This document shows positions 4,209-21,356 of a stretch of DNA of 64,000 nucleotides, one piece after another. The notes under the pieces are model-generated. The model was given only the letters and a program-made list of their open reading frames with translations, did not search any database and had not been told where the DNA came from. The DNA is taken from the NCBI RefSeq assembly GCF_012910805.1, contig NZ_WTVK01000024.1:1-64000 (forward strand), read 5' to 3'. This DNA comes from Aromatoleum evansii (GTDB lineage Bacteria > Pseudomonadota > Gammaproteobacteria > Burkholderiales > Rhodocyclaceae). How positions within the stretch are numbered: position 1 is the stretch's first letter; each line of letters begins with the position of its first letter. The position numbers and the translations under genes were made by a program.

Positions 4209-4239
4209 TGTTGATCTCGTGGGGGTTGGGGCCGTGGCC

Positions 4240-5046: not shown

Positions 5047-5157
5047 GAACGGTTCCTTGCAATAAACGGCAGCACCAATTGCGGTCGGTTGAAAAGCGCG
5101 GAGTTCAAGCGTTCAAGCGGCTATCTGTTGTGCATGGTAGCGCTGATTGATAGCTGC

Positions 5158-5419
5158 AGGCCACAGATCGTCAATCCGAAATCGTCCTGTGTCACGAGGT
5201 GCGCTTCGACGGCACGGGCTATCCGCGCGGCCTACAGGGCGAGGCGATTCCCTTCGGCACCCGGCTGTTCGCAGTCATCGACACCCTAGATGCGATGACC
5301 TCGAACCGCCCCTGCCGCAGGGGATTGCCATTCGACACCGCGAAGACGGAAATCCTACGCATGAGCGGTCGCCAGTTCGATCCGGAAGCCGTCCTCGGTT
5401 CGCCGCGGACGAATAGGTC
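5158..5419 (+). pseudogene. C-terminal fragment of an HD-GYP domain protein
   Basis: An open but start-less frame reads IVLCHEVRFDGTGYPRGLQG, EAIPFGTRLFAVIDTLDAMT, SNRP and RGLPFDTAKTEILRMSGRQF. This is the GYP half of an HD-GYP cyclic-di-GMP phosphodiesterase (HHExxDGxGYPxGL, IPxxxRxFAVxDxxDAMTSxRP). The second His of the HHE motif is kept, but the catalytic HD portion is missing upstream, where stops close the frame near 5155. It can only be a relic of a larger gene. Confidence 0.72.
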
Positions 5420-5524
5420 CCGCGGCACATGGTCGAGAATAAGTGCGGGGACGCTCCTCTGGCCTGAGTTTCTTGGCCAGCAAGTGGGCCATGTACCCAA
5501 TGTTTGCCGCACGTTTCGCGAGGT

Positions 5525-5538
5525 TTACAAACAGATAA
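5525..5538. promoter_or_regulatory. CusR-like box, one mismatch
   Basis: TTACAAACAGATAA fits TTAC-N6-GTAA with one mismatch and lies 112 bp before the start of the small His-containing protein at 5650. A comparable site lies 116 bp from the start of its paralogue at 20278. Confidence 0.45.
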
Positions 5539-5649
5539 TCCACACGTCATCGATGGGGCAGCCACTCCGGCGCACACTGGCAATATGTGCGAAGGATTCT
5601 GGCACGACCACGCCAAGAGCGGATTCGCAAACCATCACCGGAGACCATC

Positions 5650-5922
5650 ATGAAATCCAGGACTGCAGTTGCCATCAGCGCATTCTCTGCGCTCGTCGCG
5701 CTTTCCTTCGGAGCGAATGCCGCGCCGGAATCACCAGCTGCCGGGCAGACCACCAGCACGGCGCTACCGACACAGGCAACTACCAGACCCACGACACCGC
5801 GCCACAATCACATGACCGAGAAACTCGGCGTACCTACCGCGACCCCAGACTCGGACGACAAAATTGCAGCGAAGGAAAAAACACCGCTCCAGCGACACGA
5901 TCACCAGCGCGATATGAAGTGA
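5650..5922 (+). CDS. small secreted His-containing protein (family A, copy 1)
   Basis: 90 residues: a signal peptide (VAISAFSALVALSFGANAAP), a Thr/Pro-rich linker, a central RHNHMTEKLG motif and a C-terminal RHDHQRDMK. The same layout recurs in 20030-20278 and 36978-37259: HxH followed by E(K/R)L in the middle and an (R/L)HDH-x-(R/K) C-terminus. The His clusters suggest periplasmic metal binding, but this is inference; I do not recognise a named family. The gene is 21 bp upstream of the small Cys protein at 5944, probably one transcript, with a CusR-like box 112 bp ahead. Confidence 0.75.
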   Translation: MKSRTAVAISAFSALVALSFGANAAPESPAAGQTTSTALPTQATTRPTTPRHNHMTEKLGVPTATPDSDDKIAAKEKTPLQRHDHQRDMK

Positions 5923-5943
5923 CGAGGTGACGTCGCGTCTTTC

Positions 5944-6180
5944 ATGCGTCATGAAATGCCGTGCACACACGGTGTGCGGTGTGCCTGCCGCCTTCTTGCC
6001 GCTGCAACGGGTTGTCCCGAGGATGCGGTGAATTACCGCTGTTGCGCCATCGTCCTGCGCAAGCGCTGGATCGTCGAGTGCGATCATGGTTGCATCAGAA
6101 TAAGTAGAAACAGTACTGATAAGGGGCGTGACCTCGGGCCGATCGATCCCGTCAAACGGATCCTGCTTGGCAACGAGTAG
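5944..6180 (+). CDS. small Cys-rich orphan protein (family B, copy 1)
   Basis: 78 residues, with no signal peptide or membrane segment. It is paralogous to 21357-21602: both carry C-x-CRLLAAA-x-G near residue 14, then V-(N/D)-Y-x-x-C and VL-x-KRWIVECDHG, and both end with a D-x-G-x-I-x-P-x-(K/I)R-x-(I/V)L motif. Conservation of these blocks between two copies is the main evidence that it is a gene. Cys and His placement (CxC, C, ECDHG) could form a metal site. The function is unknown. It may be co-transcribed with the secreted protein at 5650. Confidence 0.65.
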   Translation: MRHEMPCTHGVRCACRLLAAATGCPEDAVNYRCCAIVLRKRWIVECDHGCIRISRNSTDKGRDLGPIDPVKRILLGNE

Positions 6181-6200
6181 GGGCACGGATAAAGAGAACA

Positions 6201-6227
6201 GCCCGCCATGCCTGTCGGTATGCGGGC
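6201..6227 (-). terminator. terminator after copK copy 1
   Basis: GCCCGC/GCGGGC inverted repeat. On the minus strand it is followed by a T-rich run (TGTTCTCTTTATC), downstream of the copK stop at 6261. Confidence 0.65.
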
Positions 6228-6260
6228 CGTTCGACTGCAGCCGCTTCGCGGCCGGGCAGC

Positions 6261-6542
6261 TTACCTCCCTCGATGGTCGCGATGCAGCAGGCTGTCAAGA
6301 CGCCAGACCTCATTGCCCTTCATCATGATTTTGTTGCCGTCCTTCGTTTCCATTTCATGACCTTCCTTCATTGAGGTAGCCCGGCCGAATTTGTCTTCCA
6401 TGGCCATCTTGCCGTCCTTGAAGATGTACACCGTCGAGCCGTCCTTCAATTCGTAGGACTTCTCGACATTACCCTGATCCACGGCGAAAGCCGAGGTGGC
6501 GATCAGGATAGATGCGGCAGCGGTAGCGAGTTTCGTGAACAT
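6261..6542 (-). CDS. copK: CopK-family periplasmic copper-binding protein (copy 1)
   Basis: 93 residues. A signal peptide ends at SAFAVDQ, and the mature domain reads ELKDGSTVYIFKDGKMAMED, with METKDGNKIMMKGNEVWRLD behind it. CopK of Cupriavidus metallidurans has the same mature start, DGKM, MET-x-DG and MKGNE motifs. Its Met residues bind Cu(I) and a C-terminal His helps bind Cu(II); here the equivalent Met positions and a C-terminal HRDH are present. Start 6542 is preceded by GAGGAAG. It lies 108 bp downstream of the czcE-like gene, presumably one transcript. Confidence 0.9.
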   Translation of the reverse strand: MFTKLATAAASILIATSAFAVDQGNVEKSYELKDGSTVYIFKDGKMAMEDKFGRATSMKEGHEMETKDGNKIMMKGNEVWRLDSLLHRDHRGR

Positions 6543-6650
6543 GATGGCTTCCTCGTGATGTGTTGCAGCAGATGAAGTCGAGCAGGCCCGTGCGGTGAAT
6601 TTCCTCATCCGGTCCCCGCTCGTGCGGCACGCCGATACCCGTCCCAGAAA

Positions 6651-7043
6651 TCAGCGTCCCCGGTAAAGCGGGCTTTCGGCGACGTACACCGTCACGCCTT
6701 CGGCGCCAGGAATGATTTTCGACAGCGGGAAACTGCGCATCGGGAACGCGTCGAAGGTCCAGTTGACCGTCTTGTCGCCGACACGAATGGCGACGGTCTC
6801 CAGTTGCACGACGTTGAGATAACGCGTGTCCTTGTCGACGACGATGAGGCGACCGGCCGCGCCGCCGGGTGCGGCATAACCGTAGGGGGCCAGTTGCCGC
6901 TCGGAGGGCTGGCTGGAAGACGCCTGGACTTGTTCCAGCCAGTGCGCGGTACCGCTTTCGGAATAGTCCGTGTGGGCGGATGCGCCGGATGCCGCAGCAA
7001 TCAGCGCCGTTGCAACGACCATGCGGTTCAATGTGCTGTTCAT
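6651..7043 (-). CDS. CzcE-family periplasmic metal-binding protein (copy 1)
   Basis: 130 residues. A signal peptide (ALIAAASGASAHTDYSE) precedes a His/Glu-containing N-terminus, then the CzcE-like core: KDTRYLNVVQLETVAIRVGD, KTVNWTFDAFPMRSFPLSKI and VTVYVAESPLYRG. CzcE of C. metallidurans is a small secreted protein that binds copper and other divalent ions; sequestration in the periplasm is the expected role. It is the first gene of a czcE-like/copK pair seen three times in this window, with a degenerate CusR-like dyad 98 bp upstream of the start codon. Confidence 0.85.
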   Translation of the reverse strand: MNSTLNRMVVATALIAAASGASAHTDYSESGTAHWLEQVQASSSQPSERQLAPYGYAAPGGAAGRLIVVDKDTRYLNVVQLETVAIRVGDKTVNWTFDAFPMRSFPLSKIIPGAEGVTVYVAESPLYRGR

Positions 7044-7140
7044 GGTGATTCCCCTTGCAGTGTCTGAGTCGGCCGTTCACATGCGAGCGACCATGAGCAC
7101 ATGCTAGGAGGGATCCCCCGACAGCAAGATGACCCCGAAA

Positions 7141-7154
7141 TTACTTCTACTTTA
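7141..7154. promoter_or_regulatory. degenerate CusR-like box
   Basis: TTACTTCTACTTTA keeps the TTAC half and has two mismatches in the second half. It starts exactly 98 bp from the czcE-like start, the same distance as the better sites at 18022 and 19052. Confidence 0.5.
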
Positions 7155-7275
7155 GCTTTATGTCATGTACAGGACAGGAACGACGGAGCGTCGTGACCAT
7201 CTTGCTGATGGCTTCCGTGACGATGCCCTCATGCCCACTGGCCGATCGTCGCCCCTTCTCCCGCGGACTGCGAAG

Positions 7276-7303
7276 AGCCCTGGGGGCAATCCCCCCAAGG
7301 CTT
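7276..7303 (-). terminator. hairpin after cusF
   Basis: AGCC-C-TGGGGG, loop CAAT, CCCCCCA-A-GGCT forms a strong hairpin just beyond the cusF stop at 7315. There is no clear T tract on the minus strand, so it may stabilise the transcript end rather than act as a classic terminator. Confidence 0.55.
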
Positions 7304-7314
7304 TGTAGCAGCGC

Positions 7315-7671
7315 TTACTTGACCTTGGTCACGACATAGTCCTTGCCTTCCTTCACAAACTCGAATTCCACCTTCTTGCCGTCGGCGAGCTTGTCCAACA
7401 GCATCTTGTCCTTGATGCCGAAGGTCATGGTCATCGCCGGCCAGTTCATGCTCTTGACCGCTTCGTGGGCGAAAGTCACCGTGCCGGCGGTGGCGTCCAG
7501 CGCCTTGACGACGCCGACGGCCTGATGGGCCTTCACGCTCGGGGCGGACGGCTTGCCCATGTCCATGCCTTTCATGTCCGTGCCTTTCATGCCATCCATC
7601 TGCTGCTGTGCAAAGGCGCTGCCCGCCAGCATCAGGGTGGCCAACGCGGGGACGAGAATCGTTTTCTTCAT
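7315..7671 (-). CDS. cusF: CusF-like periplasmic copper chaperone
   Basis: 118 residues with a signal peptide (LVPALATLMLAGSAFAQQ), then a Met-rich linker (MDGMKGTDMKGMDMG) and a CusF OB-fold: VVKALDATAGTVTFAHEAVK, then NWPAMTMTF. CusF binds Cu(I)/Ag(I) through a His, a Trp and two Met; here FAHEAVKSMNWPAMTM supplies all of these. It would hand metal to the CusBA pump encoded just upstream. The start at 7671 is chosen for the signal peptide and a GGAAG site. It is the last gene of the minus-strand cus cluster. Confidence 0.9.
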   Translation of the reverse strand: MKKTILVPALATLMLAGSAFAQQQMDGMKGTDMKGMDMGKPSAPSVKAHQAVGVVKALDATAGTVTFAHEAVKSMNWPAMTMTFGIKDKMLLDKLADGKKVEFEFVKEGKDYVVTKVK

Positions 7672-7709
7672 GAGTCGCTTCCTTTCATTCGGGGATTGGA
7701 GGAGATGCC

Positions 7710-7730
7710 GGGGCTGATCGAACCAGCCCC
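7710..7730 (-). terminator. intergenic hairpin between copK-like gene and cusF
   Basis: GGGGCTG, 7-nt loop, CAGCCCC. It sits between the stop of the copK-like gene and the ribosome-binding site of cusF. Without a T tract it could be an attenuator or processing/stability element that raises cusF relative to the upstream genes. Confidence 0.4.
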
Positions 7731-7736
7731 GTCCTG

Positions 7737-8012
7737 CTAGAACTTCGGGTTCAGGGTGCCTTTCTCGGTGATCGTCTTCCACAAGGCATCGTTCTTCATC
7801 ACGTACTGGGTTCCGTCCTTGCCTTCCATCTTCACGCCGTTCTTCATCTTGACGCGATTGCCGGCGGCGTCGATATGAACCATCGTGCCGTCTTTCTGCA
7901 GGGTGACCTTGCCGCCATCCTTGAGCTCGATGACCTGTGCTTGGACCCGTTCTTCAGCGGCGAAGACGGACAGCGAGAGAGACAGCAGCATCGGGATCAG
8001 CAACTTGCGCAT
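7737..8012 (-). CDS. divergent CopK-like periplasmic protein
   Basis: 91 residues with a signal peptide (LLIPMLLSLSLSVFAAEE) and a CopK-like core: VIELKDGGKVTLQKDGTMVH and KMEGKDGTQYVMKNDALWK. The DG-x-M, KME-x-(K/R)DG and MK-(G/N)-(N/D) positions of CopK are kept, but overall it is clearly divergent from the four close copies in this window and lacks their C-terminal His. The start at 8012 is preferred over 8018 because AGAAGGAG then has normal spacing. It lies between cusA and cusF. Confidence 0.75.
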   Translation of the reverse strand: MRKLLIPMLLSLSLSVFAAEERVQAQVIELKDGGKVTLQKDGTMVHIDAAGNRVKMKNGVKMEGKDGTQYVMKNDALWKTITEKGTLNPKF

Positions 8013-8069
8013 GATCATTCTCCTTCTGGTTAATCAAGTGGATTGCATGGGCTTGCCTGAGTCGATCGA

Positions 8070-11000
8070 TCACATTTGGACCACCTCCTTTCCCGGTTCG
8101 GGGGCGCGACGGCGTCGGCGCAACAGCAGGTAGACGGCCGGGATCACGAACATCGACAGCAGCGGCGCGGTGATCATGCCGCCCACCATGGGTGCGGCGA
8201 TGCGCTGCATGACTTCGGACCCCGTGCCACCCCCCCACATGATCGGGAGCAGCCCGGCGAGAATGACGGCGACGGTCATCGCCTTGGGGCGCACGCGCAG
8301 CACCGCGCCTTCGCGGATGGCCTCGAGCAGGTCGGCGGTGCCGGTCTTGCCCTGATCGATGCGATCGTCCCAGGCGCTTTTCAGGTAGAGCAGCATGATC
8401 ACGCCGAACTCGGCCGAGACGCCGGCGAGCGCTATGAAGCCGACGGCGCCGGCCACCGACAGGTTGTAGCCGAGCAGGTAGAGCAGCCAGATGCCGCCGA
8501 CCAGGGCGAAGGGCAGCGTTGCCATGATCAGCAGCGCCTCGTCGAAGCGCTTGAAGGTCAGGTACAGCAGCACAAAGATGATGAGCAGCGTGAACGGCAC
8601 CACCACCTGGAGTTTGGCCGTCGCCCGCTCCAGAAACTCGAACTGGCCCGACCACGAAATCGAATAGCCGGGCGGCGTCTTCACGTGTTCGGCCACCGCC
8701 CGCTGCATGTCGTGCACGGCCGAACGCAGGTCGCGCCCGCGGATATCCACATACACCCAGCCGGACAGACGCGCGTTCTCGCTCTTGAGCATCGGCGGGC
8801 CGTCCACCACCGCGACCTGCGCCACATCCGAGAGCAGGATGCGCGCGCCGCGCTCGGTGACGATCGGCAACGCCCGGATGCGTTCCACCGAGTCGCGGAT
8901 CTCGCGCGGGTAGCGCACGTTGATCGGGAAACGCGACAGGCCCTCGACCGTCTCGCCGATGTTCTCGCCGCCGATGGCCGACGCGACCACCGACTGCACG
9001 TCGGCGATGTTCATGCCGAAGCGCGCGGCGGCATCGCGGTCGATCTTGACGTCGATGTAGCGGCCGCCGGTGAGCCGCTCGGCGAGCGCCGACGAGACGC
9101 CGGGCACGTCCTTCAGCACGCGCTCAATGTCGGCGGTAATGCGGTCGATCTCGGCCAGGCTCGTGCCGGCCACTTTCACGCCGACCGGGCTCTTGATGCC
9201 GGTGGCCAGCATGTCGATGCGGTTGCGGATCGGTGGTACCCAGATGTTGGCCAGGCCCGGCACCTTCACGATGCGGTCGAGCTCGTCCACCAGCTTGTCC
9301 TGGGTCATGCCGGGTCGCCACTGCTCGCGGGGTTTGAACTGGATCGTCGTCTCGAACATTTCCAGCGGCGCCGGGTCGGTCGCCGTCTCGGCGCGTCCGG
9401 CCTTGCCGAACACGCTCGCCACCTCGGGCACGGTCTTGATCAGGCGGTCGGTCTGCTGCAGGAGCTCCGACGCCTTGCCGGCCGACAGCCCCGGCAGCGC
9501 CGAGGGCATGTAGAGCAGATCCCCTTCATCGAGCGGCGGCATGAACTCGCCGCCGATGTGCTGCAGCGGCCAGACGCTTCCGACCAGGATCAGGGCGGCG
9601 ACCGCCAGGGTCGTCTTGGGGACGCGCAGCACCGCATTCAGCAAGGGCTGATAGGCCGCGATCAGCAAGCGGTTGAGCGGGTTGCTCTGTTCGTCCGGAA
9701 TGCGTCCCCGGATCAGGTAGCCCATCAGCACCGGGATCAGCGTCACCGCCAGGCCGGCGGCCGCCGCCATGGCGTAGGTCTTGGTGAAGGCCAGCGGCGA
9801 GAACAGCCGCCCTTCCTGCGCTTCCAGCGTAAACACCGGGATGAAGGACAGGGTGATGATGAGCAGTGAGAAGAACAGCGCCGGGCCGACTTCGGCGGCC
9901 GAGTCGCCGATGACCCGCCAGTGCGCATCACCCGTCAGCGCGTGGTCTGGATGCTCGTGCTTCCACTGCTCGAGATGCTTGTGGGCGTTCTCGATCATCA
10001 CCACCGCCGCATCGACCATGGCGCCGATGGCGATGGCGATGCCGCCCAGCGACATGATGTTGGCGTTGACGCCTTGGTAGCGCATGACGATGAAGGCGGC
10101 AAGGATGCCGAGCGGCAGCGACACGATCGCGACGAAGGCCGAGCGCAGGTGGAACAGGAAGAGGAAGCAGACCACCGCGACGACGATGAACTCCTCGACC
10201 AGCTTGTGGGTGAGGTTATCCACCGCGCGCTCGATCAGGCCGGAACGGTCATAGACCGGCACGATCTCGACGCCCGCGGGCAGGCTCGATTGCAGCGTCT
10301 CAAGCTTAGCTTTGACCGCGGCGATCGTCTCCAAGGCGTTCTTGCCGGTGCGCATGACGATGACGCCGCCGGCGACTTCGCCTTCGCCGTCGAGCTCGCT
10401 GATGCCGCGCCGCATCTCCGGCCCGACCTGCATTCGCGCGACGTTGCCCAGGCGTACCGACACGCCGGCGTCGGTCGTCATCAGCGGGATCTTGCGGAAG
10501 TCGTCCAGCGATTGCAGGTATCCCGAGGCGCGCACCATGTATTCGGCCTCGCCAAGCTCCAGCACCGAACCGCCGTTCTCCTGGTTGGCCTTCTGGATCG
10601 CGTCCACGACGGTGCCGTGCGGCAGGTTGTAGGCACGCAGCTTGTCGGGGTCGAGCACGACCTGGTATTGCTTGACCATGCCGCCGATCGAAGCCACTTC
10701 GGCGACGTTGGGCACGGCCTTCAGCTCGTATTTCAGGAACCAGTCCTGCAGCGCACGCAACTGGGCCAGATCATGCTGGCCCGTGCGATCGACCAGCGCG
10801 TATTCATAGACCCAGCCTACGCCGGTGGCGTCCGGCCCGAGCGAGGCCTTTGCGCTCGTCGGCAGGCGCGACTGCACCTGGTTCAGGTATTCGAGGACGC
10901 GCGAGCGCGCCCAGTAGAGGTCGGTGCCATCGTCGAACAGCACATAGACGAAGGAGTCGCCGAAGAACGAGAAGCCGCGCACCGCCTTGGCGCCCGGCAC

Positions 11001-11225
11001 CGACAGCATGGTCGTGGTGAGCGGGTAGGTGACCTGGTTCTCGACGATCTGCGGCGCCTGGCCCGGGTAGGTCGTGCGGATGATGACCTGCACGTCGGAG
11101 AGATCGGGCAGCGCATCGAGCGGGGTCTTGCCCACCGACCAGACGCCCCAGGCTGCCACCATCGCGGTGGCCAGCAGCACCAGGAAGCGGTTTTCGATCG
11201 ACCAGCGAATGAGCCGGGCGATCAT
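8070..11225 (-). CDS. cusA: Cus-type RND copper/silver efflux pump
   Basis: 1051 residues, the normal length for heavy-metal RND pumps. The N-terminus ([20 protein letters not shown]) is transmembrane helix 1, TM4 carries [19 protein letters not shown] with the proton-relay Asp, and 12 helices in two halves are expected. The three Met residues that bind Cu(I) in E. coli CusA are matched by [20 protein letters not shown] and [12 protein letters not shown]. It exports Cu(I)/Ag(I) from the periplasm with CusB and CusC. The ATG at 11225 overlaps the cusB stop (ATGA), indicating translational coupling; the longer upstream frame is rejected. Confidence 0.93.
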
Positions 11226-12793
11226 GGCCTCTGCTCCATCGCGCCCTTCGGCTCGATGCGGGTCAGCACCGGCAGGCCATCCTTGGTCATCATGAACGCG
11301 AAGGCCACCGACTGGCCGAGCTTCAACCCTGGCGGCAAACCGGTCGCCGGCACGCCGAACTCCATCGTCATCGCGCCCCACTGCAACGACGGAATGGGGC
11401 CGTGGGACAGCGTGACGGCATCCTTGCCGATGGCTTCGATCCTGGCTTCGCCGCGGTGCTCGACCGGCGCGGCGAGCTGCGCCGGGGGGCTGCCCTCCAT
11501 GCGAGTGGTCGTCGCCTTGAGGCTGGCCTCGGAATCCACCAGGAACTGGCCCGATACCACCACCTTCTGGCCGGCCTCCAGGCCATGCTTGATCTCGGTC
11601 TGGCCGTCCGCCTCGATGCCGATGTCGACATCCACCGGACGGAACTTGCCGTCGACTTCAGCCAGCATCACCACCGTGCGCTTGCCGGTCTGGATGATCG
11701 CTTCGGTCGGCACCATCAGCCCCTCCTCGGTCCGGGCGCCCAGGAGCACGCTGACGAACATCCCCGGCGCCAGTTGCGCGCCGGGGTTGGCCACGAGGTT
11801 GACGAGCTCCACCCGCGCCTTGAGGGTGCGCGTGGCCGGGTTAACGTCGGGCAGGATCGCCTGCACCTTGCCCTTGAACACGGTGCCGGGCAGCGCCGGG
11901 GAGCGCGCTTCCACGCCAGCCCCCGGGCGCAGCAGTCCGGCCTGGCTCTCGGGGATTTCGGAGTTGGCCCAGACGGTGGACAGCCCGTTGATGCGGAACA
12001 GGGTCGCGCCCGGCATCACCGTCATGCCCTCGCGCGCCATCAACTCGGTGACGACTCCGCCGATGGGCGCCGTGAGGGTGATGCGCGGCTGCACGCGGCC
12101 GGCGACCTCGACCCGGCGGATCTGCTCGTCGCTCATGCCGACCTGACGCATGCGTTGACGGGCGCCATCGATCAGCCCGGCCAGATCGCTGCCCTGCAGG
12201 CGACGCACCGACAGGAACTCCTCCTGGGCGGCGACCCAGTCCGGCACGTAGAGGTCGGCCAGCGGCTGGCCCTTGGCGACCTGGTCGAGCGTGGCGCGCA
12301 CATAGAGGCGCTCGACGTAGCCAGTGGCCCGCGCCTGCACGAGTGCCTGGTCGCGCTCGTTGAAGGCGATGCTGCCGGCGGCCTCGACCTGCGGCGAAAG
12401 CGTGCCCCGCCTCACCTCGGCGGTGCGCACCCCCAGGTTCTGCTGCACCCGGGCACTCACCGTCACCTGGCTTTGGTCACCGTCGCCGTCGGCATGGACC
12501 GGCACCAGTTGCATGTCCATGAAGGGCGACTTGCCCGGCTTGTCGAACTTCTGCCCCGGTACCATCGGGTCGTGCCAGTACAGCACCTTCTTGCCGGTGG
12601 ACGGATCGATGTCACCGGCCTGCGTCGGGGCGGCCGCGCCTGCCGAACCGGACCCGGCGCCTGCGGCGCTGCTCGCGTGGTCCATGCCACGTTGCATGCC
12701 GAGGGCGTACAGGCCATAGCCGCCGGCAGCGAGTACGCCGGCGAGGAGGAGGCCGATCACGAAGGGTTTGAGTTTCATAGGGTGGTTTTCCAT
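11222..12793 (-). CDS. cusB: CusB-like periplasmic adaptor with C-terminal CusF domain
   Basis: 523 residues. One N-terminal membrane anchor ([20 protein letters not shown]) leads to a heavy-metal-binding segment, YWHDPMVPG...[11 protein letters not shown], followed by HlyD-type lipoyl/hairpin/beta-barrel domains. The last 75 residues are a second module, [20 protein letters not shown] and WGAMTMEF, which is a CusF domain fused to the adaptor. The adaptor links CusA to CusC and passes metal to the pump. An alternative start is the Met at 12778. The gene lies 7 bp after cusC and overlaps cusA by 4 bp. Confidence 0.9.
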
Positions 12794-12800
12794 GGCAGGC

Positions 12801-14096
12801 TCAAGGACGGGGCGTTGCGACGTCGCGGTCGGCCGGGAGCAGGTAGTTGAGTTGCGCCCACAGGCGCGCGGTGTCCAGTTCGAGGCGCAGGCGCTTCAGA
12901 CGCGTGTCGATTTCGTTGCGACGGGCGTCGAGCACCGCGGAGAGGTTCACCGTGCCGCCGCGGTAGCCGGCCATCGCCGCACGAGTGCGCTCCGCGGCCA
13001 GCGGGATCAGCGAGTCGTCGTAGCGTGTCAGGCGCGCCCGGTTGCTCTGCCATTCCTGCAGCATCGCGCGGGCCTCGGCGACGTGTTCGCGCGACGCTTC
13101 TTCGCGCTGGGCGCGCATCTGCTCGCCGACGGCGAGCTTCGCGGCGAGTTCACGGTCCTGGCGATTCTTCTGATCCCATTGCAGCGGAATCGAGACGTTG
13201 ATCGAGACCATGTTCGAGAATGCGGGACCGCGTTGGCTGAACATCAGCTCCGCGCTCCAGTCCGCCTGCTTGTTGGCGCGCGCAAGTTGCACCTCGGCGT
13301 CGGCGATTTCTTCCTGCTTGCTCATCACCCGGATCTGCGGATGGTGGGCAAGGCGCGCATCGAGATCCACCGCGCTCAGGCGGACGGCGTCGGTCGGCGG
13401 GAGCCCGCCCAAGGGCAGGTTGGCGTCGTCGCCGATCCAGCGCGCCAACCGCATCCGGACCGTTGCGACCTGTGTTTCTGCCTCGGCGATACGGTCTTCG
13501 ATCTGCGCCACGGAAGCGCGTGCCGCGAAGACGTCGGCCTGGGATCCCTTCGCGCCGCGGTACGCGGCATCGGCTGCCGCGATCTGCAAACTAGCCTCGT
13601 CGCGCTGGCTAACCAGGATCTCGCGCGTGCGCTCGAGGTAGTGGCGGTCCAGCCAGGCCAGCGCCGTGTCGCGCTGCAGGTTGGACAAGGCCAGTACTCC
13701 AGCGGCCTGCGCCGCCTCGGCTTCGCGCTCGAAGCGCGCCGCGCGCGCCTTGCGCTTGTCTTCGCGCGTGAATTCCTGTGCCACCCCGATCGAGCGCATG
13801 GTCATGAAATCGCGTGTGAGGCTGAACCGGTCAGGGCCGCCGACCGGCAGATTGTTGATCCCGGCCTTGAGCATCGGATCAGGCAACTGGGCGGCCGCTA
13901 TCGCCATTTCGCGGGCGGCGGTGGCGGAGGCGCCCTGGGCGGCGAGTTGGCGCGAACGGTCCTGCGCCAGGCGCAGCGCCTGGTCGAAATCCAGCACGTT
14001 GTCGGCATGAGCGCCCAGGGCGGTGATGCCGAGGGCCAAGGCGATGGCGTGCGCGACGACACGCCTCCGCGAGAAGCGGAATGAGTCAGAAAACAT
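12801..14096 (-). CDS. cusC: CusC-like TolC-family outer-membrane channel
   Basis: 431 residues with a signal peptide (VVAHAIALALGITALGAHAD) and two TolC-type OEP repeats of long amphipathic helices: ALRLAQDRSRQLAAQGASAT, LPDPMLKAGINNLPVGGPD and VSINVSIPLQW followed by RQDRELAAKL. It forms the outer-membrane duct of the CusABC pump. No lipobox Cys is apparent at the cleavage site. It is the first structural gene of the minus-strand cus operon and is followed 7 bp later by cusB. Confidence 0.88.
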   Translation of the reverse strand: MFSDSFRFSRRRVVAHAIALALGITALGAHADNVLDFDQALRLAQDRSRQLAAQGASATAAREMAIAAAQLPDPMLKAGINNLPVGGPDRFSLTRDFMTMRSIGVAQEFTREDKRKARAARFEREAEAAQAAGVLALSNLQRDTALAWLDRHYLERTREILVSQRDEASLQIAAADAAYRGAKGSQADVFAARASVAQIEDRIAEAETQVATVRMRLARWIGDDANLPLGGLPPTDAVRLSAVDLDARLAHHPQIRVMSKQEEIADAEVQLARANKQADWSAELMFSQRGPAFSNMVSINVSIPLQWDQKNRQDRELAAKLAVGEQMRAQREEASREHVAEARAMLQEWQSNRARLTRYDDSLIPLAAERTRAAMAGYRGGTVNLSAVLDARRNEIDTRLKRLRLELDTARLWAQLNYLLPADRDVATPRP

Positions 14097-14231
14097 CAGA
14101 GCTCCAGACAGGGGAACGAGTCAGCTCGGGATAAATCCCGCCGCCGGCGAGTCGAAACTCGCAAGCACGGACGAGCGGAACCGATGCGCCGGACGACCGC
14201 TCAGGTCGTCAGCGCAGCGTCGTCTGGAGGA

Positions 14232-14702
14232 TCAATGTCGGAAGCAGCAGTGCAGGATGGCGTGCGGCGGGGAGGTGGCAGCGAGTAGGCTGGCCGCCGC
14301 TGCGGCGGGCCGGGTCGGCCCGGTCGGCTCCGGCAAGAGGGGGAGGGTATAAAGGTTGGAAAGCACTACCGCAGGCACCGTCGGTGTCTGCGTCTGATCG
14401 CTCTGCTGGCCGAAATGAACCTGTTCGACGCAGAGGTTGGGATTATCGGGGTCCGCCTGACCCATCTCGGGACATCCGGGCGCCATGTCCACGACCGGCG
14501 TTGTCGTCTCGGATCCTGCCATGGCCGTGTCCGCGCCGGCCGGACTACCCTTCGAACCCATGGTCGGCATCGCCGACCGCTCGCTGAACTCGGCCGACGA
14601 CAGTTGCGGGCACGCGTAAGCCGCGAGCGCCATTTGCGAAAACAGCAGAATGCCAATCAACAGCTGGCAAACCGATCGTTTGACGCGCCGGATCATGGTC
14701 AA
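14232..14702 (-). CDS. secreted Cys-containing protein of the cus cluster
   Basis: 156 residues. A signal peptide (LLIGILLFSQMALAAYACPQ) is followed by a low-complexity Pro/Thr/Ser region with PGCPEMG and LCVEQVHF, and a C-terminal HAILHCCFRH. The ATG overlaps the stop of the MerR-type regulator by 4 bp (ATGA), so the two are translationally coupled. I do not recognise a named family. Location and Cys/His content suggest periplasmic copper contact, but that is inference. Confidence 0.7.
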   Translation of the reverse strand: MTMIRRVKRSVCQLLIGILLFSQMALAAYACPQLSSAEFSERSAMPTMGSKGSPAGADTAMAGSETTTPVVDMAPGCPEMGQADPDNPNLCVEQVHFGQQSDQTQTPTVPAVVLSNLYTLPLLPEPTGPTRPAAAAASLLAATSPPHAILHCCFRH

Positions 14703-15205
14703 TGCTCCACCGCGTCGGCGTGGGCAGGTCGCTCGGCACCGGACGCCGTCCGAAGGCGCACCTGCGGTCCACCCGCCGGGGCTTCCGCAACGGGGTCCGT
14801 CGTCAACGCCGCGATGATCGGACAGGCCTGCGACTGCGGCGCCCGGGCACAGCAGGAAACCAGTCCCTCCAGCGCGGAAGCCATCGCTTCCAGCCGGCCG
14901 ATGCGCTCCCGAATCTCGGCGGCGCGCCGCCTGGTCACTTCGCGCACGTGTACCTGGTCGCGTTCGGCACTCAATGACACCAGTTCGGCGACATCATCGA
15001 GCGAAAACCCCAGTTCCTGCGCCCGCTTGATGAAGCGCAGGCGTTGCACGTCGTCCGCCGAATATTCCCGGAATCCGCCCGCCACGCGCTGCGGCTCGTG
15101 CAGCAAGCCGCGCCTTTGGTAATAACGCACGGCCTCCACCCCGACACCGGCGGCGTCGGCGATTTTGCGGATGGTGAAGGCACGGGTAGGCACGGGCGGA
15201 ATCAA
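14699..15205 (-). CDS. MerR-family metal-responsive regulator
   Basis: 168 residues. The N-terminal winged helix (FTIRKIADAAGVGVEAVRYY, QRRGLLHEPQR, GGFREYSADDVQRLRFIKRA) is typical MerR, followed by a dimerisation helix. The metal-binding loop reads CCARAPQSQACP, giving the 9-residue Cys spacing of MerR rather than CueR. The MerR Cys near position 79 is not seen. The inducer is therefore uncertain (copper, or a thiophilic metal). The start is a TTG at 15205 or a GTG at 15193. A dyad at 15210-15233 immediately upstream is a likely operator. Confidence 0.88.
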   Translation of the reverse strand: MIPPVPTRAFTIRKIADAAGVGVEAVRYYQRRGLLHEPQRVAGGFREYSADDVQRLRFIKRAQELGFSLDDVAELVSLSAERDQVHVREVTRRRAAEIRERIGRLEAMASALEGLVSCCARAPQSQACPIIAALTTDPVAEAPAGGPQVRLRTASGAERPAHADAVEH

Positions 15206-15209
15206 CCAA

Positions 15210-15233
15210 AACTCAGTTTGATGCTACGGAGTT
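15210..15233. promoter_or_regulatory. putative MerR-type operator
   Basis: The minus strand reads AACTCCGTAG-CATC-AAACTGAGTT, an imperfect dyad with AACTC/GAGTT ends like known MerR-family operators. It abuts the regulator start codon, suggesting autoregulation and control of the downstream secreted protein and cusCBA. Confidence 0.5.
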
Positions 15234-15652
15234 TAGTGCCGGTGAATGTCCATGTCCACAAGGGAATCGGTGCAGCTCAAGTTGGCCCCCGGCACCGTGG
15301 CCAACCCCGCGCCAATGCCAGATTCATCGACAGCATGTTCGCCACTGCCATTGCGCTTTCCTTCAGCGTGAGGCCGCACCGGATGCCACACCATCTGGGG
15401 TGCTGCTGCCGCATCCCGAGATCCATCATCTGGCTGCATCGGCCCGTAATGATCCAGCATGGACTGGCGCTGCTTGAGTCGCTCTCGGGTGAACTGCCCG
15501 CTTCCCGGCGCAATCGTACCCTCGAACCTCGATTTCGCCTCCGGCCCCTACATCGAGCGTGATTTCGCGATTACCGAGTTGGGATTATTGGATTACCGCT
15601 GACACATAGGCGAAGTGGCAGTGACGCTCGCGGTGGGCGTCCAAGCGGTGGT
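15234..15652. other. gap without a supported gene
   Basis: Minus-strand frames near 15277-15513 contain Met/His/Gln-rich fragments (QRQSMLDHYGPMQPDDG) but are broken and have no recognisable start. They may be the remains of a small metal-responsive gene; no gene is called. Confidence 0.4.
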
Positions 15653-16165
15653 CTACTGACGCTGCCCCTCCAGTAGCGCGACCACATCCCACCGCTTCAG
15701 TGTTCGCGCCAGCCAGAGGACATCGTGGCCGTCCGTATCGAGCAAGTCTCGTCTCGCTCCGCCGATTAGTAGGTACCGAACGACCGAGGTGTGGCCCTTA
15801 TAAACGGCCCAAAACAGCGGCCACTCCCCCTCCACCGTGCGACTGTCAGGGTTGGCGCCGCGGCCGATCAGGAACGAGACGATATCCGCGTGTCCATTGA
15901 AGGCTGCCCAAAAAATCGGCGTCCAACCCCGATAGTCGGCCAGGTCGATGGAAGCCCCCCGCGCCAGCAAGCTGTCGACGACTCCCCATTGACGACCATG
16001 CACCGCGTGAAACAACGCACTGCAACCTTCGACATCCCGACACTCGCAGGACAATCCGTCGTCAAGTAAACGACAAACGTCCTGCACATTGCCTGCACGG
16101 ATTGCGTCGAGGAGGGCAGTTGTCATACGAGCGGTACTCGATGCGCTGTGAGTCGAGTCATTCAT
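15653..16165 (-). CDS. ankyrin-repeat protein (copy 2)
   Basis: 170 residues, a clear paralogue of the protein at 66-572: same length and start (MND), with the same GWTP(L/I)FWAAFNGHADIVSFL and GEWPLFWAVYKGHT repeats and LWLARTLKRWD C-terminus. Divergence is concentrated in the first two repeats (CSALFHAVHGRQWGVVDSLL). It is cytoplasmic, with a predicted protein-interaction role and unknown partner. The two copies are in opposite orientation and bound the 15-kb segment that holds the first cus operon. Confidence 0.85.
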   Translation of the reverse strand: MNDSTHSASSTARMTTALLDAIRAGNVQDVCRLLDDGLSCECRDVEGCSALFHAVHGRQWGVVDSLLARGASIDLADYRGWTPIFWAAFNGHADIVSFLIGRGANPDSRTVEGEWPLFWAVYKGHTSVVRYLLIGGARRDLLDTDGHDVLWLARTLKRWDVVALLEGQRQ

Positions 16166-16465
16166 CGGTGCGATACCCGCGCCCGTTCCTTTCGGGGGCG
16201 ATTGTCCGACAGGCCGTGATGTGTTTCGCCTCCCGCAACTTGATGCACATCAGCAGCCTGTCGGGCAGGCGGGATGGCACGCACGCTTAAGGCGAGATTC
16301 GTCAGGGTCTCGCCGAAAGGCGAGCTGGGAGCCCTGGAACGGCTTCGACATGAAAAGCCGGTCCGATTTGACGCTCGCAAGCGAGAAAGTGGCCACGGCA
16401 CACCAACCGGAGAAAGGTGCTCGGCGCGCCACTTACGTCTATCAACTGCCGGTTAATGAAGAAAC
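16166..16465. other. gap without a supported gene
   Basis: Short overlapping frames on both strands here show no recognisable protein features. The stretch ends at the terminator hairpin of the solitary copK. Confidence 0.4.
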
Positions 16466-16493
16466 GGCCTGCGGTGCCGGGGGCGCCCAGGCC
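16466..16493 (-). terminator. terminator after solitary copK
   Basis: GGCCTG/CAGGCC hairpin. On the minus strand it is followed by a T-rich stretch (GTTTCTTCATT), just beyond the copK stop at 16525. Confidence 0.6.
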
Positions 16494-16524
16494 ATTGGAC
16501 TTGCACTGCGATTGAATTGCAGTG

Positions 16525-16806
16525 TCAGCGACCGCCGCGATTCGGATGTAGCGCCCTTTCAAGTCGCCAGATCTCATCGCCCTTCATCATAATCTTCTGG
16601 CCATCTTTCGTTTCCATCACGTGACCTTCCTCCATTCTTGCGACCCGGCCGAATTTGTTTTCCATGGCCATTTTGCCGTCCTTGAACACGTACACGGTTG
16701 ATCCATCTTTGAGTTGATATGACTTCTCGACCGTGCTTTGGTCCACAGCAAAGACCGATGCTGCCAACAGCGCGGACACTGCCGCGACCGCGATTTTCAT
16801 ACGCAT
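16525..16806 (-). CDS. copK: CopK-family protein (copy 2, solitary)
   Basis: 93 residues. A signal peptide (VAAVSALLAASVFAVDQ) is followed by QLKDGSTVYVFKDGKMAMEN, the MEEGHVMETKDGQKIMMKGD segment and a C-terminal LHPNRGGR. The Met ligand positions of CopK are retained. Unlike the other three close copies it has no czcE-like gene directly upstream and no CusR-like box within the preceding 300 bp, so it may be expressed differently. GAGGAG precedes the start. Confidence 0.88.
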   Translation of the reverse strand: MRMKIAVAAVSALLAASVFAVDQSTVEKSYQLKDGSTVYVFKDGKMAMENKFGRVARMEEGHVMETKDGQKIMMKGDEIWRLERALHPNRGGR

Positions 16807-17114
16807 GATAGGCTCCTCTCGTTAATGTCGCCTCAGCGGGCGAAGCGGTTAGAATGGTGATGCAAAGGTTATTTTGATATCGCCGAACCCGAGTGGGCCT
16901 CGCAAAACCGACTACAAGCAGCCTTATTGACCGTGGGGGGATGGTTGACTGCCCCTGAAAACCGAAATTCTCGGGCGCTTCAAGCGTCCGGATCAAGCCT
17001 GTTAGATCGTCGTAAAATCATGAACAGGCGGCTGATTCTTACTACAGTATGCATCCGCATGAACCTGCCGTAGGCTCTACGATTGCTAACAACCAGTTAT
17101 CCCGGAGGCGGGAT
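16807..17114. other. gap without a supported gene
   Basis: No gene is supported. The position where a czcE-like partner would be expected upstream of the solitary copK holds only non-coding-looking sequence with frequent stops. Confidence 0.4.
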
Positions 17115-17135
17115 GCGTGGTTCAGTAACCCACGC
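17115..17135 (-). terminator. hairpin after copK copy 3
   Basis: GCGTGGTT-CAGT-AACCCACGC folds into a hairpin with a one-base bulge, 16 bp beyond the copK stop at 17151. It has no T tract. Confidence 0.4.
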
Positions 17136-17150
17136 TCGTGACAATGAGAC

Positions 17151-17432
17151 CTAGCTGCCGCCACGTTCGCGATGCAACTCCCTCTCAAGCCGCCAGATTT
17201 CGTTACCCTTCATCATGATCTTCTTACCATCCTTCGTTTCCATGGCATGGTCTTCCTTCATTGTGACAAACTGCCCGAATTTGTCTTCCATAGCCATCTT
17301 GCCATCCTTAAATACGTACACCGTTGATCCGTCCTTTAGTGAGTAGGACTTCTCAATATTTCCCTCGTCAACGGCGAATGCGGATGCTGCGATCAGGGTC
17401 GAAGCAAGTGCGATAGCAGTCTTCGTGAGCAT
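17151..17432 (-). CDS. copK: CopK-family protein (copy 3)
   Basis: 93 residues. A signal peptide (IALASTLIAASAFAVDEG) precedes SLKDGSTVYVFKDGKMAMED and the METKDGKKIMMKGNEIWRLE core, ending LHRERGGS. All Met positions of the copper site are kept, but the C-terminal His is reduced to LHRE. The start is preceded by TAGGAGGAG. It is the second gene of a czcE-like/copK pair, 102 bp after its partner. Confidence 0.9.
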   Translation of the reverse strand: MLTKTAIALASTLIAASAFAVDEGNIEKSYSLKDGSTVYVFKDGKMAMEDKFGQFVTMKEDHAMETKDGKKIMMKGNEIWRLERELHRERGGS

Positions 17433-17534
17433 GATTGGCTCCTCCTAGGTGTGGGGCGGTTCAAACGCGAGCCCAGTGCCGGTGCGCGTACGTTTCTCGG
17501 TCGCGTACCGAATTTTTGACCGTCTGCTTGAACC

Positions 17535-17924
17535 CTAGCGACCTCCCTGATACATCGGATTTTCATCCACGTAGACAGTAACCCCCTCTGTGCCAGGAAT
17601 GGCCTTTGCAAGCGAAAAGCTGGCTGTCCCGAACGTGTCGAAGGTCCAGTTAGCGGTCTTTTCTGCCATGCGAATCGCGACGGTTTCAAGCCGTACCACA
17701 TTGATATGGCGTTTGACCTTATCGATTATGACTTCCCGAGTTGGCATGGCAGACGATGCATAACCGTAGCGGGCGAGTTGCTGTTCGGTCGGTTGGCTGG
17801 AAAATGCTGCAACATGTCCGCACCAGTGAGTGGCGCTTTTTTCCGAACAGTCTTCATGTGCGAATGCGCCAGAGGCCGCAGTGAGTAGACCTGAAGCGAG
17901 GACAAGCCGCGTCAACGTTTTCAT
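17535..17924 (-). CDS. CzcE-family periplasmic metal-binding protein (copy 2)
   Basis: 129 residues from the ATG at 17924 (ACGAGGA upstream); a longer in-frame ATG at 18008 would bury the signal peptide and is rejected. The signal peptide (LVLASGLLTAASGAFAHEDC) is followed by a core with INVVRLETVAIRMAEKTANW and VTVYVDENPMYQGG. This copy has two Cys (EDCSEK and HWCGHV) absent from the other two copies, a possible difference in metal ligands or a disulfide. A dyad box starts 98 bp upstream. Confidence 0.85.
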   Translation of the reverse strand: MKTLTRLVLASGLLTAASGAFAHEDCSEKSATHWCGHVAAFSSQPTEQQLARYGYASSAMPTREVIIDKVKRHINVVRLETVAIRMAEKTANWTFDTFGTASFSLAKAIPGTEGVTVYVDENPMYQGGR

Positions 17925-18021
17925 AGTGCATCCTCGTGCCTGACGACGTTCAATTGCTCGCGCGCAAGCAATCATGAACCAATGATAGACGGCAGTCTCT
18001 GACGGCAAAGTGACGTGGTGA

Positions 18022-18035
18022 TTACGTCTACGTCA
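18022..18035. promoter_or_regulatory. CusR-like box
   Basis: TTACGTCTACGTCA: TTAC-N6-GTCA, one mismatch from the TTAC-N6-GTAA dyad, exactly 98 bp from the czcE-like start at 17924. Confidence 0.6.
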
Positions 18036-18105
18036 CTTCCGATTATTGCGAAAACTGGGGTGAGATCCGAGGGGCGCGAATCATCACCCATTTGCTTGAA
18101 AACGA

Positions 18106-18139
18106 ATTGGCCCGCTCTGCAATCTGGGCGCGGGCCAAT
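18106..18139 (-). terminator. rho-independent terminator after copK copy 4
   Basis: A perfect 10-bp stem, ATTGGCCCGC / GCGGGCCAAT, with a 14-nt loop, followed on the minus strand by TCGTTTTC. It separates the two neighbouring czcE-like/copK pairs. Confidence 0.75.
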
Positions 18140-18169
18140 CGAACGCGGTCGTTCCTAGACCGCATGGAC

Positions 18170-18451
18170 TCAATTTGTCTGGTGCTCGCGATGTAGCGCG
18201 CTATCGAGACGCCAGATTTCGTTACCTTTCATCATGATCTTCTTGCCGTCCTTCGTCTCCATCGTATGTCCCTCCTTCATGGAAACAGCCTGGCCGACTT
18301 TATTCTCCATAGCCATCTTTCCGTCCTTGAAGATGTAGACGGTTGAGCCATCCTTCAGTTCGTAAGACTTTTCCACATTTCCTTGGTCCACTGCGAATGC
18401 GGACGTCGCAATCAAAACGGATGCTGCTGAGGCAATAAGTTTCATAAGCAT
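18170..18451 (-). CDS. copK: CopK-family protein (copy 4)
   Basis: 93 residues. A signal peptide (IASAASVLIATSAFAVDQ) precedes the CopK core ELKDGSTVYIFKDGKMAMEN and METKDGKKIMMKGNEIWRLD, with a C-terminal LHREHQTN that keeps one His. It is very close to copy 1 at 6261, including the VDQGNVEKSYELKDGST start of the mature domain. It follows the czcE-like gene by 110 bp and is closed by the strong terminator at 18106-18139. Confidence 0.9.
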   Translation of the reverse strand: MLMKLIASAASVLIATSAFAVDQGNVEKSYELKDGSTVYIFKDGKMAMENKVGQAVSMKEGHTMETKDGKKIMMKGNEIWRLDSALHREHQTN

Positions 18452-18561
18452 GACTGGCTCCTGGTTGGTGAACGGTGAAGATTATGTTCCACGGTGTGAC
18501 ACTGCCGGCATTGACGGTGTGTGAAATGACGCCTCCGACCGCACGTCATCATTGGTAGCGC

Positions 18562-18954
18562 TTAACGTCCGCCGCGATACATAGGGTTTTCCTCGACGTA
18601 AACCGTAACACCCTTGGCTTCCGGAATGATCTCGGTGAGCGGAAACGGCCGTGGGTAAGCATCAAATGTCCAATTGATCGTCTTGTCGCCAATGCGAATG
18701 GCGACGGTCTCCATCTGCACGACGTTGAGAGAGCGGGTGTTTCGGTCGATAATTGCGGTACGTTCCGCAGGGGCTGACGATAAATATCCATAAGGCGCCA
18801 GTTGTCGCTTAGTTGGCTGACCGGAAGCCGCTTGTGCGTGTTCTAGCCAGTGCGAGGCGCCGGCTTCGGAGTAGTCGGTATGTGCTAGAGCATTTGCGGT
18901 GCCCGCGCCAACTAGTATTGTTAGTGCTATGACTCGTGGGAAACTCACGTTCAT
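18562..18954 (-). CDS. CzcE-family periplasmic metal-binding protein (copy 3)
   Basis: 130 residues. After a signal peptide ending near ANALAHTDYSE, the protein shares HWLEHAQAASGQPTKRQLAP, YGYLS and VVQMETVAIRIGDKTINW with copy 1. The C-terminus is VTVYVEENPMYRGG. The HTDYSE...HW segment at the mature N-terminus is conserved in copies 1 and 3 and is the likely metal-binding region. It is first in a pair with copK and has the best CusR-like dyad of the three, 98 bp upstream. Confidence 0.87.
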   Translation of the reverse strand: MNVSFPRVIALTILVGAGTANALAHTDYSEAGASHWLEHAQAASGQPTKRQLAPYGYLSSAPAERTAIIDRNTRSLNVVQMETVAIRIGDKTINWTFDAYPRPFPLTEIIPEAKGVTVYVEENPMYRGGR

Positions 18955-19051
18955 GGTACTTACCCCTGCAGGTTCATGATCGGACGGCCTTAATCGAACC
19001 CTCGTGAGACTATGTTAGTCGTGGGTGCCTAACATAGGAATGACCGCTGCA

Positions 19052-19065
19052 TTACATATGCGTAA
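19052..19065. promoter_or_regulatory. CusR-like box, full match
   Basis: CATTACATATGCGTAATTG contains TTAC-N6-GTAA and resembles the E. coli CusR/HprR consensus CATTACAAnnTTGTAATG. It starts 98 bp from the start codon at 18954. Confidence 0.7.
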
Positions 19066-20029: not shown

Positions 20030-20278
20030 TCATTGATTCTTGTGAAATTTGTTATGATCGTGAAGTGGTTTTTTTGCGTGCTGCAACTTGCTGTCCGCTG
20101 CTTTCGGCGTTGAAACTGCAAGTTTTTCCTGCACGTGGCTATGCGGGCTGACCTGAGACTCGGGTTTTTGCGTCTCGGCCCTCGGAACATCCGTAGTTGG
20201 CGAGGCTGCATTAACCACCGGGGTGACGAATGCAGAGACAGACAGCACGCTGGCGATAAGGATCCGTTTCGGTGTCAT
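20030..20278 (-). CDS. small secreted His-containing protein (family A, copy 2)
   Basis: 82 residues from the ATG at 20278 (GGAG upstream). A signal peptide (ILIASVLSVSAFVTPVVNAA) is followed by a Thr/Pro/Gln linker, SPHSHVQEKLAV in the middle and KKPLHDHNKFHKNQ at the C-terminus. The arrangement matches 5650-5922 and 36978-37259 although overall identity is low. The His clusters suggest metal binding in the periplasm. It has a full-match CusR-like box 116 bp upstream. No named family is recognised. Confidence 0.72.
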   Translation of the reverse strand: MTPKRILIASVLSVSAFVTPVVNAASPTTDVPRAETQKPESQVSPHSHVQEKLAVSTPKAADSKLQHAKKPLHDHNKFHKNQ

Positions 20279-20407: not shown

Positions 20408-21356
20408 GAATTGACTGGACTGTACCGCGCGGTAGGGGGTGATCGACGCGCTGCGGGGCCGAAGGCGGCACATTCAGGCGAGGTCCGCGTTGGATAATGA
20501 TGGCGTTGCTGTTCGCCGCCAACCTGGTCACGACCGAGGTCTGCGGTCGCGCCTACCCCTGTCGAAAGTTGGACGCTATCGAGACGATGGTGCCGCCCAA
20601 CCTGCGACCGGACGGCACCAGATGACCCATCCGCCCTCTGTCGATTCACGCACTCCGCGATGTTCTTGACGGCGTGCTGAGGCTGCTCATGCACAACCGT
20701 GCACGGCACCAGAGAGCCGCCGCCAAGACGCTAGACTGTGCAGATCGGAACACGTATCCGATCCAGATCGCCACCCCGGTGCGACGTCTTGGGTTCCGCC
20801 CATTCAATTCCCATAGTGCCCCACCGCCCGTGAGGCAGTTCAGTCCAACGGGATCTTTTGCCTACCGGCCGGAGGATGAGCGCATGGCATCGGTTGACCG
20901 CAGCGCGCCGCATCCGCCAGGCAAGAGTCTGTCTCCAGTTGCATTGCGATGTAATTTGTACGTCATCATGATGTCAGCGATGTGCGCATAGACTGAAGTT
21001 GTCGCCGCTCAAGATTGGGGGAGTGCTTTCGGTAGACGATTGTGATCGCAGCCGGGATGCACAATGCGTCACGGTAGGATCCTCACGAAGCCGCCGTCGA
21101 CTCATCACCGATCGAATTGGCAGCTTCAAGAACCAATCCGTGTGCGGTCGTATTTCCGATAGCATGAGCAGCCATCAATTCCGAAGCCGGCGTGCCATGA
21201 AAGAAGTTCACGAACATGGTCGCCGACGTCCATTGCCTCACTTGCCGACGAGTTTCTTCTGACACCAATGACGATCCGGCATCGGGCAGCGAAGGTTTCG
21301 CAAATTGGCGACTTGCCGTCGCGCATGTGTTCAAACGTTATGATCGGAGGTGTTCC
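20408..21356. other. gene-poor stretch
   Basis: About 950 bp in which every frame is short or lacks protein-like features. No gene, RNA or repeat could be supported, except the GGAGG site at 21346-21350 that serves the next gene. Confidence 0.4.

Follow-up and report, generated by a model that had tools for sequence, protein, structure and literature searches.

Why should one stretch of bacterial DNA carry the same two-gene unit three times, every time behind the same upstream element and at the same distance from it? The question is raised by the first 64,000 nucleotides (the window) of contig NZ_WTVK01000024.1, here C166, of Aromatoleum evansii, which hold an island of the metal-resistance type in a draft genome of 5.9 Mb. 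A preliminary description had reported three pairs of a czcE-like gene and copK in common order and on a common strand, and this is what we find, with intergenic gaps of 108, 102 and 110 bp. Our answer is that the pairs are very probably separate copper-induced units of a CopR-type copper-buffering regulon, a reading that builds on the genes themselves, the geometry of their promoters, the conservation of this geometry and its placement at copper-type genes.

All three pairs lie on the minus strand. Pair 1 consists of a czcE-like gene at 6651-7043 (PF16986, 87.6 bits) and copK at 6261-6542 (PF11525, 115.2 bits), pair 2 of genes at 17535-17924 (71.8 bits) and 17151-17432 (105.6 bits), and pair 3 of genes at 18562-18954 (65.3 bits) and 18170-18451 (116.8 bits), the profile cut-offs being 30 bits for PF16986 and 23.8 bits for PF11525. 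Overlooked earlier were a lone copK downstream of pair 2 (16525-16806, minus strand, PF11525 113 bits), a divergent CopK at 7737-8018 in a cus operon, and a fourth pair outside the window; in all, nine CopK places and four CzcE places were counted in the host genome. The copK genes of the three pairs and the lone copK (PF11525 105.6-116.8 bits) reach 143.3-153.5 bits with NF033793, above its cut-off of 123 bits; the divergent CopK passes PF11525 (41.8 bits) and fails NF033793 (57.3 bits). The pair 3 product aligns over 71 residues of mature CopK (2k0q, 3dso), matching 2k0q at 1.9e-25; in contrast to that known case, a genome here has several CopK paralogues, which are paired with czcE or joined to the N-terminus of CzcE. 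The Cu(I)-ligand methionines of mature CopK, which we take to be M28, M38, M44 and M54, are all kept in the alignment of the three paired CopKs, the fourth-pair copy and the lone copK; the CopK of the cus operon lacks the first of these four presumed ligands.

The AlphaFold model of the pair 3 czcE-like protein is confident for the CzcE domain only, and this C-terminal domain has 2wto and 2wtp as its top Foldseek matches (1.1e-6), next to a sequence relation at 7e-11. The host proteins differ from CzcE in an N-terminal segment that is unmatched in the aligned part of 2wto and in standing outside a czc operon. Since CzcE proper is the distal gene of that operon, whereas all three window genes precede copK and the nearest efflux operon has CusB and CusF matches that mark it as cus-type, we class them as CzcE-family rather than as CzcE.

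The promoter shared by the pairs

The preliminary description had placed a dyad 98 bp from every czcE-like start and had called it degenerate at pair 1, one mismatch short at pair 2 and full at pair 3. Both statements hold: the proximal base lies 98 positions from the A of the ATG in each case, and the dyads TAAAGTAGAAGTAA (7141-7154), TGACGTAGACGTAA (18022-18035) and TTACGCATATGTAA (19052-19065), all on the minus strand, differ from TTAC-N6-GTAA at two, one and no positions, respectively. With at most one mismatch allowed, the pattern has 17 matches in the window (5 of them perfect), compared to 3.57 +/- 2.01 in shuffled sequence, and none of 100 shuffles reached 17. An alignment of the upstream sequences had been suggested as a check, unrelated regions speaking against the idea, and when it was run the three 140-bp regions aligned without gaps, with 70, 76 and 64 identities out of 140; the next-best shifts within 20 bp give just 40-48. 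Together with the shuffles and the reversed-pattern counts described below, this gap-free alignment rules out a chance likeness of the three regions.

Taken alone, the dyad proved incomplete as an operator, as direct repeats and a -10 element follow it at fixed spacing. In the alignment, the repeats GTAAT, GTCAY and GTNRG are spaced by 11 bp and TANCAT comes another 11 bp on, so that the full promoter can be written TKACA-N3-ATGTAAT-N6-GTCA-N7-GTCRG-N11-TANNAT, with half-sites in phase, a -10 element and no -35. From the three window pairs we derived a signature of 16 bases, which they match without mismatch by definition: 7101-7144 for pair 1 (reading GTAAT..TAGCAT, -10 at 7101-7106), 17982-18025 for pair 2 (-10 at 17982-17987) and 19012-19055 for pair 3 (-10 at 19012-19017), always on the minus strand. 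Since the repeats and the -10 belong to the search pattern, their constancy among matches is partly by construction. Classical sigma-70 promoters were considered for the pair starts and rejected, the sigma-70 scans giving no promoter at the three czcE starts.

The distance from the end of the -10 to the ATG is 57 nt at the window pairs, the fourth pair, the kin of pairs 1 and 2 and the czcE-copK fusions described below; at the same-genus counterparts of pair 3 it is 52-56 nt, and over all boxed czcE starts 52-64 nt. This variation argues that the exact 98 bp is no special device, and it is best understood as a product of common ancestry and a fixed promoter geometry.

The element itself is a predicted cop-box promoter of the CopR/AgrR type. 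Excerpts of PMC7380067 describe the footprinted AgrR box of Cupriavidus metallidurans NA4 as a 6-4-6 inverted repeat, ATKACANNNNTGTMAT, with in-phase direct repeats and a poor or missing -35, and report that CopR and PcoR bind inverted repeats. The host consensus fits ATKACANNNNTGTMAT and shares the in-phase direct half-sites and the weak or absent -35, although pair 1 shows the 6-4-6 repeat weakly, with two core mismatches. It differs from the AgrR box in the constancy of the downstream direct repeats and of their distance to the -10, which is partly by construction, and in a left half that is often degenerate at the pairs.

A predicted copper regulon

When up to two mismatches are allowed, the host genome has 16 sites that match the signature and none that match its reversed pattern; over 471,935 bases of the window, the host's own contigs and relatives, with overlapping loci counted as is, the figures are 62 and 0. 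From 52 distinct sites, 36 non-redundant ones (<85% identity) were retained, with the consensus TKACA-N3-ATGTAAT. The left half-site lies outside the search pattern, yet T, A and C stand at fixed positions in 35, 33 and 30 of these 36 sites, and a weaker further repeat is seen 11 bp upstream of it (T in 22, A in 18, C in 22). The open reading frames (ORFs) downstream are of copper type at 10 of the 16 host sites, comprising the four czcE-copK pairs, a czcE/copK fusion on contig C44, a copK preceded by a site of its own (C166:66940) and four others identified by eye. These last are a TolC-like protein, a small secreted protein rich in His and two small membrane proteins that resemble DUF2933 (judged from a relative in the window that matches PF11666).

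Gene starts were surveyed after removal of rows that shared their last 110 upstream bases, of starts displaced by more than 25 residues from the expected position and of starts with fewer than 120 bases upstream. A site with at most three mismatches precedes 24 of 28 distinct czcE-type starts, or 21 of 25 when the three that defined the pattern are set aside, and 100 shuffles of each stretch never fell below four mismatches. The four misses are a truncated fragment and three czcE genes (L018-L020) whose loci gave no copK match. Such a site was found before 6 of 29 copK starts, a low fraction that would fit transcription of each paired copK from the promoter of its czcE partner. The lone copK at 16525-16806, for which no box of its own was found within 260 bp upstream, is perhaps transcribed by read-through from the promoter of pair 2.

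The same box appears in a system already known. Using a pattern variant that includes the left half, we found six sites with at most three mismatches (two of them overlapping) in the pMOL30 cop cluster of C. metallidurans CH34, compared to 0.05 on average over 20 shuffles. Of the six, three lie 41-52 nt before copH, copA and the gene after copH, which from its place in the gene order is presumably copQ. The copA start validated by rapid amplification of cDNA ends in CH34 is 191,243 (an excerpt of PMC7563307), which, if the record version is the same, is 9 nt after our predicted -10 and supports the promoter reading. The same article already describes a putative CopR1 motif that many cop genes, each with its own transcription start, share about 50 bp upstream, so a motif common to many cop genes is not new. 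Beyond the box, the CH34 cluster, the regulon of CopR1S1, has CopK, the CzcE-family CopH, DUF2933, DUF411 and RND genes near CopRS in common with the host. It differs in that the stretch read has a single copH and a single copK, separated by about 14 kb, in place of the host's repeated two-gene unit. What the host adds is a predicted operator for a copper regulon outside Cupriavidus, open to testing.

The proposed activator is a CopR-type response regulator at 51906-52586 on the plus strand (TIGR01387, 366.7 bits, cut-off 279.2; 73% identity to CH34 CopR1), followed by a CopS/CusS-type sensor kinase at 52583-53998 on the same strand (TIGR01386, 495 bits, cut-off 292.55) with the CusS sensor domain PF21085. 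A perfect dyad at 51828-51841 (plus strand) ends 65 positions before the copR start, and copR is likely autoregulated through this predicted site. The kinase would sense periplasmic copper and activate the regulator, and we infer that CopR would then bind the multi-half-site box and switch on the -35-less promoter. Each pair would thus form its own copper-induced transcription unit, whose mRNA encodes two exported proteins, the CzcE-fold protein, with a mature N-terminus beginning with the His of its HTDYSE..HW segment, and CopK. The two would buffer periplasmic copper, with Cus pumps exporting it. CopK is a known Cu(I)/Cu(II) binder (passages of PMC7959690 and PMC11886801), and the latter describes both CopK and CopH of CH34 as periplasmic copper binders.

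Several observations weigh against this reading. Six of the 16 host sites face doubtful ORFs or genes for which no role in copper handling is established; a Rieske subunit and a secreted protein rich in Met and His are two of these. Pair 1 and many of its kin have a degenerate left half-site, and three of the six boxed copK starts carry three mismatches, close to the shuffle level of three to four. The pMOL30 scan gave no site at copK or copM, and three of its six sites have no gene of our hand-made list within 400 bp, one of them having an unlisted hypothetical gene 131 nt downstream. In CH34, moreover, other regulators may also drive cop proteins, according to a passage of PMC11886801.

It could be argued that the operator belongs to a related two-component system for another metal (CzcR- or AgrR-like, for zinc, cadmium or silver), with copper a secondary signal. 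AgrR, which binds cop as well as czc promoters, is closely related to CzcR and CopR (PMC7380067), and CzcE of CH34 was first linked to zinc (PMC11886801). However, the regulator of the island is 73% identical to CopR1, its partner kinase carries a CusS sensor domain, and 10 of the 16 sites face CopK, CzcE-family, DUF2933-like or similar cop-type genes, which makes such an assignment rather unlikely. More plausible, though still well behind buffering, is the idea that the pairs are chaperones or signal modulators, handing copper to CusCBA or to cuproenzymes, or tuning a sensor kinase as has been proposed for CzcE and CzcS. CopK is thought to hand copper on for efflux (a passage of PMC11886801), CzcE influences czc expression via CzcS (an excerpt of PMC10127602), and cus-type efflux genes and a CusF-like gene lie in the same island; against this, multiple near-identical copies would fit bulk binding better than signalling. 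Buffering and chaperoning are not mutually exclusive, and copper sequestration appears the likeliest role of the pairs.

Spread, duplication and fusion of the cassette

The preliminary description knew of single copK and czcE genes and took the array as something not known before, but the pair turns out to be common in the family. Among 395 family genomes, CzcE occurs in 59 (80 places) and CopK in 92 (147 places), and at 58 of the 80 CzcE places a CopK follows less than 500 bp downstream on the same strand. The pair is present in 43 of the 59 CzcE-bearing genomes; 33 genomes have one pair, seven have two, one has three and two have four (the host and G322), so that 10 of the 43 carry more than one. 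Aromatoleum, Azoarcus and Thauera are among the named relatives. Two copper proteins known separately in CH34 thus travel as one cassette in this family.

The copies in the host have different histories. The fourth pair lies on contig C297, within a block that aligns with window 1-7180; three main pieces of the alignment have 95-97% identity and a short fourth piece 84%, with two gaps, which marks this pair and pair 1 as a recent segmental duplication. As a side observation, window 1-7180 and L013:1-6503 start their contigs at the same base of the duplication, suggesting that the assembly stopped in the repeat. In CzcE, pair 1 shares just 58% identity with pair 2 and 62% with pair 3. In G262, G322 and G333, pair 3, pair 2 and the lone copK follow in the same order, as they do in G044 without an intact third czcE. 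In trees of 23 czcE and 30 copK rows, from which identical sequences and short matches had been removed, pair 2 groups with its syntenic counterparts and so does the lone copK, both with moderate support, pair 3 being less well resolved. Given this shared order and grouping, pairs 2 and 3 are probably an old tandem shared with related species and not a recent burst.

These histories bear on whether the upstream similarity was simply inherited through recent duplication, with a functionless dyad. For pair 1 and the fourth pair, with main pieces at about 95-97% identity, inheritance of this kind would be natural. The low CzcE identities of pairs 2 and 3, their synteny in other species with the box positions kept, and the signature before unrelated genes and in other genera make it a highly improbable account of the whole. 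The earlier suggestion that the array reflects dosage or specialisation can now be divided: the recent copy of pair 1 speaks for dosage there, pairs 2 and 3 are paralogues that diverged long ago, and the motif changes of copy 2 suggest specialisation. Extra copies would accordingly give more dosage (pair 1 and its copy) and in part specialisation (pair 2), and recent and diverged copies in one genome make a direct comparison of the two possible.

The cassette also exists in reduced forms. On C44 of the host, a single gene behind the same promoter encodes a CzcE signal peptide, HTDYSEAGSTHW, a linker and CopK without its own signal; PF16986 was not found in the product, which scores 100.7 bits with PF11525. 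The fusion recurs in six more sampled same-genus genomes (L059-L064), making seven of 17; at these loci and at L015:6521-6913 (minus strand) the signal peptide and N-terminal segment of CzcE are joined in frame to CopK with the CzcE domain dropped. All seven have a box with at most one mismatch exactly 57 nt before the start, like the window pairs. The other 10 comprise three genomes without a CopK match, five with a single, unfused CopK place, G333, which was read in part and showed no fusion, and G344, which was not read but is included in the count. Decay is seen elsewhere: L065 has a lone intact copK behind the cop box with decayed czcE remnants between, and in G044 an unchanged box precedes the third copK by 260 nt, with only an inverted 5' czcE fragment between them. 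The orientation of this fragment (L051:11741-12010, box at 11967-12010, minus strand) suggests a local inversion.

The fusions and this decay behind a kept box suggest that the pair, the tandem, the lone copK and the fusion are forms of a single cassette in which the promoter and CopK stay constant. No czcE-copK operon or fusion was found in the literature titles and abstract openings searched, full texts lying mostly outside that search, so that absence is not proven; as far as the searches show, the spread of the cassette, the extended operator in the family and the natural czcE-copK fusions are new.

The N-terminal segment and neighbouring genes

The natural fusions point to the part of CzcE that matters to CopK. 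This part carries H.(D/E)YS..HW, outside the PF16986 match, in 27 of 35 distinct czcE-type proteins, every fusion included; 26 of the 27 have an AxA site before it and the C44 fusion has VSA. The eight without it are window pair 2 (with the variant HEDC..HWC), its three counterparts elsewhere (GEQYS and no HW), two C-terminal fragments and, at two loci of the Thauera/Azoarcus type, a second copy. The HTDYSE..HW start is absent from CH34 CopH, which differs from the host proteins in this respect, and from the Janthinobacterium CzcE-family sequences read. CopM was considered as a relative of the segment and rejected, as no similarity was seen by eye. With the 48-residue N-terminus as query, 199 family genomes gave 26 places at E < 0.001, all of them, by position, known CzcE places, fusions or the truncated fragment in G044; many weaker matches look like chance.

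In proteins that bind Cu(II) through an N-terminal His, that His is the first mature residue, and it would be so here if the signal peptide is cut before the segment. It can tentatively be hypothesized that HTDYSE..HW is a portable copper site that acts jointly with CopK as a Cu(II)/Cu(I) relay, the promoter-segment-CopK fusion being the minimal form of the relay. Against this, the N-terminal 42 residues of the model have a predicted local distance difference test (pLDDT) score below 50, and so lend the His motif no structural support as a site.

The divergent CopK at 7737-8018 is flanked by a CusF-like gene and by a CusA/CzcA-family pump with a CusB-like adaptor and a TolC-like partner. Another run of cus-type genes extends downwards from ORF 50191-50571, includes a CusB-like gene with a CusF domain at 47238-48812 and is preceded by a cop-box-like site at 50616-50629 (minus strand) with one dyad mismatch, its direct repeats and -10 identified by eye. 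Terminator scans of the minus strand predicted nothing behind the copK genes. RNA folding of 18090-18168 gives a stem-loop at 18103-18141 (minus strand, z -3.47) after the copK of pair 3, a possible terminator absent from the scan; a strong stem follows the lone copK (z -4.17), a weaker one the copK of pair 1 (z -1.99), and no convincing one was obtained after that of pair 2 (z -0.78).

Small His-rich secreted proteins recur, at 5659-5922 (plus strand) and 20030-20278 (minus strand) of the window, both without a Pfam or NCBIfam match, and near 2296 of L056, where the gene stands behind a cop-box-like site with two mismatches. Two small Cys-containing proteins without a Pfam match (5944-6180, adjoining pair 1, and 21216-21602, both on the plus strand) have CRLLAAA..KRWIVECDHG in common. 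Finally, related ankyrin-repeat genes lie near the copper cassettes at 66-572 (plus strand) and 15653-16165 (minus strand), the second identified by a Pfam scan, and similar DNA recurs near cassettes in G262, G322, G333 and G044.

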